A DNA stretch of 64,000 nucleotides from Deltaproteobacteria bacterium. Lineage in GTDB: Bacteria > Desulfobacterota > Dissulfuribacteria > Dissulfuribacterales > DYLC01. Position 1 is the first letter of the stretch, and every line of letters starts with the position of its first letter. Of this stretch, positions 20 to 3,354 are shown piece by piece. The translations under genes and the position numbers were made by a program. The notes beneath the pieces are model-generated. The model worked only from the letters and a program-made list of their open reading frames with translations. It searched no databases and was not told the origin of the DNA. The stretch lies in NCBI GenBank assembly GCA_028695735.1, contig JAQVIJ010000002.1:209852-273851 (forward strand), written 5' to 3'.

Positions 20-433
20 TTCGAATCACTTGACCCGATTAGAGGGGATTAAGACCAGTGACATCCCAGTTTCCATTAACTGGTTTTTGCGATATTAGAA
101 TCACTTGACCCGATTAGAGGGGATTAAGACCATGTGCGCAGACGCCGGCCTGTGGATGCGGCCTCATAGCCACCGATTCGAATCACTTGACCCGATTAGA
201 GGGGATTAAGACACATTCCCAACATTCACAACAGGCACCCGATGTCCAACATTCGAATCACTTGACCCGATTAGAGGGGATTAAGACATGGTAAAACAGA
301 CTGCCCGATAAATTCAGACATTCGAATCACTTGACCCGATTAGAGGGGATTAAGACATCCACGATAGCAATAATGTATGGTATTGCTATCCCGATTGTTC
401 GAATCACTTGACCCGATTAGAGGGGATTAAGAC
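20..433 (+). CRISPR. CRISPR array, six repeats and five spacers, open at the left edge
   Basis: Six 36-bp repeats lie at 20-55, 95-130, 177-212, 252-287, 321-356 and 398-433. All share the core GAATCACTTGACCCGATTAG and end GGGGATTAAGAC. Only the second differs, with TTA for TTC at its start. Spacers are 39, 46, 39, 33 and 41 bp, a variable length typical of type III or some type I arrays. The ATTAAGAC end resembles the 8-nt crRNA 5' handle, so transcription is inferred to run on the plus strand. Bases 1-19 would then be the tail of another spacer and the leader lies outside the window. The degenerate repeat at 1782-1816 fits a leader-distal, decayed end. No cas1, cas2 or cas10 is in the window. 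Confidence 0.97.
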
Positions 434-512
434 GGCCTTTATACCACAAACACACCACATACACGAATGAGGCGGAAAATTCTTTAATCTATACTTATCA
501 CTATCAATAATG

Positions 513-1712
513 TTATTTATATAATAACTCCTCTAAATTAAATTGACTATCACGCAATACATCAGTAACATCTTTTTTGGCTTGTAAAATTTGATAAACT
601 TTATTATCTATAGCATTACCAAGTAAATGATATACAACTACTTTATTCTTTTGTCCAGCTCTATAAACCCTACTCAAAGACTGAACATAATCCCTATAAG
701 CCAAAGGTAACGACAAAAATACTACATTACGATACCTCTGTAAATTAAGACCCTCTTTGATACAATAAGTTGCTATCAAAGGTTTATCCTGTTTATTAAC
801 ACACTCTACTAATTGCTTCTTATCATCACCTGTTATAAAGTAACCATCAACATGTTTGGTTAACTCTTTAACAGGCGCAACAAAATTACTAAATACTACT
901 GTATCAGGATTATCTTTAAGAAACTCAATCACCCAAGCTAATTTTGTATGATTAAAAACTTTCCCATCACATACACCCTGGGCAATTTGATACTTGGCTA
1001 TAAACTGTGCTAAAATATTGATGCTACTGCTACTAGCTAATTCAATCGCGTTAGGTTTCCTAATAGGTTCTGTTTTAATCACAATATTTGATAACTCTGG
1101 TAACTCTATTACATCTTCTCGTTTAACAATGTTAAGAAAAGGCTTGAATAATGCAATGTAATTATCTTCACTTACCTTCAATCTTGTTGGATTAAAGAAA
1201 TTATCAAGGAAAAAATACCTATGCAAAAGCACACTATAGCCTGACATGAAAGGACGCTGATTAGGACATAAAATATTGAATGGAAACAAAAGCTCATGCC
1301 ACTTATCAGCTGGTGTTCCTGATAGCATTAAACAAGGAATATCAGGAAACTTCTGCCGTAATCGCAAGGCTAATTTAGATACCTTGGCTTTATTTGATTT
1401 TAATCTATGTGCTTCATCAAAAATGATGAAATCATAAAGTTTAAATTCTCTTTCAGTCATATGATTTCTAAATTTTTCATATGACATTATACTAAACCTA
1501 TGATTTCTTATCCCATAAAATTCCAATTCACTCTCCCAAGATATAAAGACATTTTTAGGACACACTATAAGTGTATAGTTACTCAATAGTGCGTCCATAC
1601 AGGCACAAGCAAACCTTGTCTTACCTGTGCCTGTGTCCCAATAAGCATACATTCTCTTTAATTTTGTAAACAATTCAACCCCATCTTTCTGATGGTTCCA
1701 TAATTTGAACAT
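513..1712 (-). CDS. SNF2-type SF2 helicase/translocase inside the CRISPR locus
   Basis: The 399-aa protein carries the SF2 set in order: an ATP-binding motif DTGTGKT near residue 27, IVCPKN (Ia), DEAH (II), LSGTP (III), then a C-terminal RecA lobe with EGLNLQ (V) and QSLSRVYRAGQ (VI). The last is characteristic of SNF2-family double-stranded DNA translocases. It is compact, with almost nothing beyond the two motor lobes, as in phage-encoded SNF2-like helicases. The start follows GAAGGGA at about 7 nt. It is strongly AT-rich and lies on the strand opposite the array, 79 bp after the last good repeat and 69 bp before an orphan repeat. Phage or plasmid origin is likely. A role in CRISPR function is not shown. 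It could equally be a captured gene. Confidence 0.88.
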   Translation of the reverse strand: MFKLWNHQKDGVELFTKLKRMYAYWDTGTGKTRFACACMDALLSNYTLIVCPKNVFISWESELEFYGIRNHRFSIMSYEKFRNHMTEREFKLYDFIIFDEAHRLKSNKAKVSKLALRLRQKFPDIPCLMLSGTPADKWHELLFPFNILCPNQRPFMSGYSVLLHRYFFLDNFFNPTRLKVSEDNYIALFKPFLNIVKREDVIELPELSNIVIKTEPIRKPNAIELASSSSINILAQFIAKYQIAQGVCDGKVFNHTKLAWVIEFLKDNPDTVVFSNFVAPVKELTKHVDGYFITGDDKKQLVECVNKQDKPLIATYCIKEGLNLQRYRNVVFLSLPLAYRDYVQSLSRVYRAGQKNKVVVYHLLGNAIDNKVYQILQAKKDVTDVLRDSQFNLEELLYK

Positions 1713-1781
1713 TTTTTAATCCCTTCTTTCAAAGAAATTTAAAATGGCAATTTATCCTCACTATCTTCACTATGTCAAGTA

Positions 1782-1816
1782 TTTGAATCACTTGACTCGA
1801 TTAGAGGGATTAAGAT
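1782..1816 (+). repeat. Orphan degenerate CRISPR repeat
   Basis: This 35-bp sequence matches the array repeat except for a few substitutions (TTT for TTC, GACTCG for GACCCG, final T for C) and one missing G in the G run. It lies 1.35 kb beyond the last array repeat with the helicase gene between. Decay of this kind is usual at the leader-distal end of an array. It indicates that the array once reached here or that DNA was inserted or lost between the two. Confidence 0.9.
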
Positions 1817-1901: not shown

Positions 1902-1973
1902 ATGACAACAGTTTTAATTTTAGCGGCATTTATTCCGCCTATTATTGGTCTCATTATAATATTATCTTGTTAA
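1902..1973 (+). CDS. 23-residue hydrophobic membrane peptide upstream of the CARF gene
   Basis: An ATG open frame of 23 codons plus stop follows an exceptionally strong ribosome site, AAAAAGGAGGAG, about 6-8 nt upstream. The peptide begins MTTVLILAAF, contains a PP kink and continues with an Ile/Leu-rich stretch ending in Ser-Cys. That is one membrane-spanning helix with no charged residue. It lies 76 bp upstream of, and in the same direction as, the CARF-HEPN gene, so co-transcription is plausible. I do not recognise the family. It could be a small membrane effector, a toxin-like peptide, a leader peptide or a chance frame. The ribosome site and the clean hydrophobic composition are the only evidence. 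Confidence 0.5.
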   Translation: MTTVLILAAFIPPIIGLIIILSC

Positions 1974-2049: not shown

Positions 2050-3354
2050 ATGCCAAATAGATCAGAAACTATCTTATTATGTACTGTTGGAGGCTCACAT
2101 CAGCCAATCATAACAACTATTAAAGAAATAAAACCTGATTATATCTGTTTTATATGTTCTGAGGATGATCCTGAAACAGAAAGCAAAGGATCACATATTC
2201 AAATTACAGATAAGGTCATAGTAATAAGTAAAAAACCAAATGAAAAACAAACACTACCAAACATTCCAACTCAATTAAATCTTCAATCAAATGAATTCGA
2301 AGTAAAATTAGTGCCAACTGATCATTTAGATAAGATAGTTATTGAAATTAATAAAATTATAAAGGAATTAAAGACACGTTTCCCCAATGCGCATATTATT
2401 GCTGATTATACAGGCGGTACTAAATCTATGACTGCCGGTCTTATTATATCATGCCTTGAAGATATAGATATAGAGTTGAGATTGGTTACTGGAGCTCGTG
2501 CTAATCTTATAAAGGTAAATGATAATACACAAAGAAGTATATCTGCATCGATAGATTTGATTAGATATCAGAGAAAAATATCACCATATCTATATGCCTG
2601 GAAGCGATATGCTTATGATGAAGCATTTAAAGGATTATCGCAGATAGAGGCGCCGAGGGATCAACAATTACGGGCAGAGTTTAATATAGCACAAAATCTA
2701 TCACATTGTTTTGATCTATGGGATAAATTTGATCATGAACAGGCCAAGACATTCTTAAAATTATATGCTCCTAAATTAAAAAATGAATATAACTTTCTTT
2801 TGCCGCAAGTAAATTCTCTTATTAGGAGGGAAAATGATAGTAATGAAAAAAAACAAACTATAGAGGCATGTAAGATATTAGATCTGTGGTTAAATGCACA
2901 ACGCAGAGCAATTCAAGGACGCTATGATGATGCAGTAGCTCGTATATATAGATTACTTGAATGGATTGCTCAATGGTTGATTTATAAATATTTCAATGAA
3001 AAAACAAGCAATATGCCATCAGAACTTTTACCATCAGAATTAAAATCAGAATTAAAACTTGAGCTGACTGGTGAAAAAGAGATTAAGCTCGGATTATTAA
3101 ATAGTTGGAAATTTATTTCACTAAAACTTCCCAAGGAAGATTGGGTTGATTTTTTCAAATCTCAAGAAAAAATTTTACTTAACTTTCTATCTATGCGCAA
3201 TAATAGTATATTAGGGCATGGGGTTACGCCAGTAAAAAAGGAGGACTGGCAACAATTTTCTGCGTGTATAGAAGAAAAACTTATAGCCCTATTCTTGAAA
3301 GAGGCCCATATAACAATGCCCAAACAACTACCCAATGAATTATGCTGGAAATAG
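2050..3354 (+). CDS. CARF-HEPN ribonuclease, Csm6/TIGR02710-like CRISPR effector
   Basis: The 434-aa protein has an N-terminal Rossmann-like CARF domain (about residues 5-165) with the ligand-loop motif DYTGGTKSM at 119-127, typical of the TIGR02710 group of CRISPR-associated proteins. A helical C-terminal region follows and ends in RNNSILGH (Arg383, His390), an R-x6-H motif expected of HEPN ribonucleases. By family knowledge such proteins are switched on by cyclic oligoadenylate made by Cas10 and then cut RNA non-specifically. AAAAAAAGGAG sits 7 nt before the ATG. The gene is AT-rich like the array, and no Cas10 gene is visible, so the type III complex should lie left of the window or elsewhere. 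The exact subfamily is uncertain. Confidence 0.88.
   Translation: MPNRSETILLCTVGGSHQPIITTIKEIKPDYICFICSEDDPETESKGSHIQITDKVIVISKKPNEKQTLPNIPTQLNLQSNEFEVKLVPTDHLDKIVIEINKIIKELKTRFPNAHIIADYTGGTKSMTAGLIISCLEDIDIELRLVTGARANLIKVNDNTQRSISASIDLIRYQRKISPYLYAWKRYAYDEAFKGLSQIEAPRDQQLRAEFNIAQNLSHCFDLWDKFDHEQAKTFLKLYAPKLKNEYNFLLPQVNSLIRRENDSNEKKQTIEACKILDLWLNAQRRAIQGRYDDAVARIYRLLEWIAQWLIYKYFNEKTSNMPSELLPSELKSELKLELTGEKEIKLGLLNSWKFISLKLPKEDWVDFFKSQEKILLNFLSMRNNSILGHGVTPVKKEDWQQFSACIEEKLIALFLKEAHITMPKQLPNELCWK

Follow-up and report, generated by a model that had tools for sequence, protein, structure and literature searches.

A 1,348-bp insert between the last intact repeat and a decayed terminal repeat of a type III-B CRISPR array is almost certainly captured phage DNA. 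It is located at positions 434 to 1781 of the window, i.e. the 64,000-nucleotide stretch of Deltaproteobacteria bacterium contig JAQVIJ010000002.1 that was analysed. It is phage-derived from at least 519/528 to 1775, lies antisense to array transcription and carries an intact helicase gene from a phage group among the targets of this array. Since at least 28 ordinary spacers are directed against the group from which the insert stems, we regard it as a rare capture resembling a giant spacer and not as an accessory gene. Phage DNA is thought to be stored in CRISPR arrays only as short, measured pieces, with which this gene-sized piece contrasts. This raises the question of whether arrays are occasional landing sites for large phage fragments, possibly through mis-sized acquisition or through spacers that offer phage DNA homology for recombination. 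The present case is bacterial and phage-derived, the sole precedent found being archaeal and originating from a plasmid. It is also a warning that a gene adjoining a type III effector need not be an accessory gene.

The insert and its phage origin

The array contains approximately 105 repeats, and the window covers its leader-distal end only, with the leader and the cas genes lying outside to the left. This end (20–433, plus strand) consists of six intact repeats starting at 20, 95, 177, 252, 321 and 398, together with their spacers. The last intact repeat, a perfect copy at 398–433 (plus strand), forms the left border of the insert. The right border is a decayed terminal repeat at 1782–1816 (plus strand) in which three C residues have changed to T and one G has been lost; the two flanking repeats are not identical and differ at four positions (three substitutions and one deletion). 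A pattern scan allowing up to 3 mismatches retrieved the repeat core 106 times genome-wide, all on one strand, and the reversed pattern used as a control gave 0 matches genome-wide. Regular repeats ending at window position 433 account for 105 of the 106 copies. The copy at 1782 is the sole extra one in the genome, which, given the empty control, rules out a chance match. Between the two repeats lie 1,348 bp, compared to 32–45 nt for ordinary spacers, making the insert about 37 times as long as an ordinary spacer and placing it outside the spacer range of this array. These results recover what an earlier note on this DNA had described, i.e. a true repeat ending at 433, a 399-codon SNF2-like helicase gene on the opposite strand and a decayed repeat at 1782–1816, with about 1.35 kb between two repeats of one array.

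A 100-N assembly gap is present within the array about 20 bp to the left of the first repeat of the window, outside the window itself; despite this nearby gap, both junctions and the insert are continuous sequence. Just left of the window (G000:C5:209476-209870), the spacer AAAAGTTTCCATTTCGATTTCCCCTTTCTTTGT is present twice, each time followed by the beginning of the same next spacer. The second copy of this stretch is interrupted by the 100-N gap, and it is either a true array duplication or an assembly artefact. An insert-free version of this array was not found in any of the genomes compared. One relative of the same order (G008) has only four copies of a related repeat, in a decayed array (L058:1418-1670) which sits downstream of cas1 and cas2-like ORFs.

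The helicase ORF (513–1712, minus strand) is open over 399 codons and displays the motifs GTGKT, DEAH, SGTP and QSLSRVYRAGQ. Pfam assigns it to the SNF2/DEAD type, and its best match is the phage family phrog_62 (E 4e-56), spanning both helicase domains (residues 2–392). Like the phage helicases of this family, it is matched in full length with intact motifs; unlike them, it lacks its phage neighbours and lies within a CRISPR array of a bacterial chromosome. On the nucleotide level, three IMG/VR phage contigs (L024, L025 and L026) match the insert with 80–81% identity from 519/528 to 1775. The homology crosses a phage gene boundary, since the insert also contains the last codons and stop of the phage gene upstream of the helicase (1739–1774, minus strand), reading HSEDSEDKLPF compared to HTEDDDELPF in the phages. 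The match thus continues via the intergenic stretch into the end of this upstream gene, indicating a fragment of a phage genome and not a lone gene. On the IMG/VR contigs, the helicase is part of a replication block with genes for a processivity factor, a dCMP deaminase and an exonuclease, with terminase and head genes additionally present on the contig of L024.

The phage homology ends on the right 6 nt short of the decayed repeat, and the left 85 bp (434–518) gave no firm match by blastn, exact pattern scan, tblastx or peptide comparison. This left end probably comprises, as far as about 460, the beginning of the next phage gene, and perhaps a remnant of the original terminal spacer. The Shine-Dalgarno sequence of that next gene is kept as GAGGAG, seven bases before the expected start codon, which now reads ATA, and there is weak similarity to the N-terminus of its product (LKNFPPH / IENLPPH, shuffle p 0.002–0.05). 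Based on these two features, phage DNA may extend to about 460, which would leave approximately 26 bp unexplained.

Among 59 relatives, the closest of which belongs to the same family as the host and the others of which are more distant, the helicase is absent and only weak matches to other SNF2 proteins were retrieved. The sole match in the genome collection is archaeal and 25% identical. The 2.2 Mb host genome was searched with three stretches of two phage contigs, themselves fragments, and yielded no other sizeable piece of the phage group, only the insert, the spacers and three matches of 74–345 bp. On this basis, a prophage remnant was rejected. Entry by way of phage-borne repeats was rejected as well, the exact repeat core being absent from the phage loci examined.

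Array spacers against the phage group

At E<=1e-3, 28 of the 104 spacers (at least 27% of the array) match the phage group of the insert, and reversed spacers gave 0 matches to it. The vast majority of these 28 spacers (25) are antisense to an ORF, none is sense and three fall outside long ORFs, a bias to be expected of a type III system that targets RNA. In orientation, the insert agrees with the ordinary spacers, being antisense as well. A single spacer is directed against the phage version of the helicase gene, and no spacer matches the captured helicase copy at E<=1e-3. The protospacers showed no clear PAM motif, their flanks being merely A+T-rich.

On the phage contigs L076, L077, L078 and L079, all spacer matches are located in replication and other early-type genes, and the terminase/head region of L076 (1–14000) has none. 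This distribution would be in line with a preference for spacers directed against early transcripts.

Route of entry and alternative explanations

The best overall explanation, held with modest confidence, is that a phage fragment was captured into the oldest spacer interval by recombination or repair and serves as a pseudo-spacer at most. The fragment, roughly 1.3 kb from a phage replication region, comprises the tail of one gene, the whole helicase gene and probably also the start of the next gene; it would have landed in the last and oldest spacer interval of a type III-B array with which the host targets the phage group. Entry most likely occurred at the terminal spacer, e.g. with one end anchored via homology between spacer and protospacer. 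Given that at least 27% of the spacers match the phage group, such a match may have existed in the old terminal spacer too and provided the anchor. With unequal flanking repeats and an intact gene, recombination or repair at this spacer is the best fit; as the route of entry in place of ordinary spacer acquisition, we give it about an even chance. Cas1-Cas2 acquisition should leave two identical repeats. The unequal repeats, together with a length of about 37 spacers, therefore argue against a recent Cas1-Cas2 insertion.

Neutral decay was also simulated. At the point rate of the repeat, the ORF was destroyed in 3,000 of 3,000 simulations, and at the lower 95% rate, 16% of the ORFs survived. 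The intact ORF thus suggests either that the capture is younger than the decay of the repeat or that the ORF is under selection, and we favour the former, which would mean entry by recombination or repair into a terminal spacer already present. With 16% survival at the lower 95% rate, an old capture preceding the decay may still be compatible with the data. In its present state, the insert would at most be an over-long pseudo-spacer; array transcripts reading through it would be antisense to the phage helicase mRNA. The last crRNA would then consist of the last repeat and the first 35–40 nt of the insert. The helicase protein itself is most likely incidental cargo.

The closest known case is SiL-E1 of Sulfolobus islandicus LAL14/1, located in CRISPR_2. 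This plasmid-derived fragment of about 2 kb was called a pseudo-spacer by its authors and has two identical flanking repeats, no unaccounted bases and 82% identity to plasmids (PMC3718332). No other large insert in an array was found in the literature searched. In both cases, a mobile-element fragment of kilobase size that bears genes lies between two repeats and is absent from relatives, and the identity to the source is similar (82% to plasmids versus 80–81% to phages here). However, SiL-E1 lies in an archaeon, stems from a plasmid and is followed by further spacers, whereas the present insert lies in a bacterium, stems from a phage and occupies the leader-distal interval. Further differences from SiL-E1 are the decay of one flanking repeat, the 85 bp that lack a source and the many ordinary spacers directed at the source phage group. 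Grouping the two together is a statement about mobile-element inserts between repeats, not proof of the same mechanism. Degenerate leader-distal ends of arrays have been described as well (PMC4869251) and share the decayed last repeat and the insertion at the trailer end; unlike there, the inserted DNA is identifiable here as a fragment of a phage group targeted by the array.

The flush ends and identical repeats of the Sulfolobus precedent (PMC3718332) also speak for a true giant spacer, in which a phage fragment of about 1.35 kb would have been inserted at a repeat by Cas1-Cas2 early on, without processing, and the distal repeat decayed later. The phage homology reaching within 6 nt of the repeat, the antisense orientation shared with ordinary spacers and the presence of cas1 and two cas2-like ORFs in the locus agree with this. 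Against it stand the length, the non-identical repeats and the age of such a spacer, which, as the first acquired, would be older than the other 104 and yet has an intact ORF; overall, we consider it unlikely. The narrower version, in which the type III-B adaptation machinery of this bacterium integrated the giant spacer and the helicase was kept as an antisense source or an interfering protein, appears quite unlikely. Retention of the helicase by host selection after its capture, e.g. as a protein acting against phage replication or as a source of long antisense RNA, is likewise quite unlikely. The intact ORF and motifs are consistent with it, as are a dN/dS of 0.14–0.17 compared to the phage copies, although this low value may come wholly from life in the phage and cannot separate phage from host, and a promoter-like site upstream of the ORF (TTGACA-18-TAAATT, 1778–1749, minus strand), although such sites in the region barely exceed shuffles (23 versus 17.8 +/- 4.2). 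Moreover, the gene is known from no other host.

Another possibility might be that phage DNA was inserted illegitimately and hit the array by chance, which needs no special machinery and would suit a left end that is non-homologous as far as visible. We consider it improbable, as the sole sizeable fragment of the phage group in 2.2 Mb sits in an inter-repeat interval of normally about 40 bp, an argument from location that is partly ascertained because the finding was chosen for lying beside the array. The earlier note had left open whether a phage-type gene was captured into the array or repeats were lost around an older gene. The former is supported by near relatives on phage contigs only, by homology across a gene boundary and by the targeting of the group, and the latter lacks support, given the 59 relatives without the gene and the lone, distant archaeal match. 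The note also considered SNF2 helicases near type III accessory genes worth a survey; the idea that the two go together finds no backing here. Proximity to csx1 is all that speaks for such a role or for membership of a conserved chromosomal block, while the helicase points away from csx1, has its near relatives in phages only, comes with the tail of a phage gene and is missing from all 59 relatives, six of which carry a csx1 relative, so that the pairing recurs in none of them. The locus comparison likewise gave no sign that the 1782 repeat is a chance match or that the gene belongs to a conserved CRISPR-free block. An accessory or chromosomal-block origin was therefore rejected and has next to no probability.

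The type III-B locus and its neighbours

The array's own system is a complete type III-B locus with Cas10/Cmr2, Cmr1 and Cmr3-6 encoded near the array. Upstream of the array are cas6, a Csm6-type CARF gene, a CARF-adenosine deaminase gene, cmr1, cas10/cmr2, cmr3 to cmr6, cas1 and two cas2-like ORFs; the Cmr3 and Cas6 profile matches are under the curated cut-off. The two successive cas2-like ORFs (92 and 97 aa) follow cas1 (L028:3749-4321) and were assigned by eye, and G008 has two small ORFs at the matching place. Beside the Csm6-type CARF gene, the adenosine deaminase-domain gene (L027:5885-7942) encodes a product resembling the Cad1 effector (CARF and adenosine deaminase), its CARF part being putative.

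Downstream of the array, outside the insert, a neighbouring Csx1-type CARF-HEPN gene (TIGR02710) was identified at 2050–3354 (plus strand). With this csx1, the type III-B locus would hold three cyclic-oligoadenylate effectors, including the putative Cad1-like one. Directly upstream of csx1, a 23-codon ORF (1902–1973, plus strand) is preceded by the strong Shine-Dalgarno sequence AGGAGGAG. Its product is a very hydrophobic peptide, MTTVLILAAFIPPIIGLIIILSC, without a Pfam match, and may be a small membrane peptide belonging to the locus.
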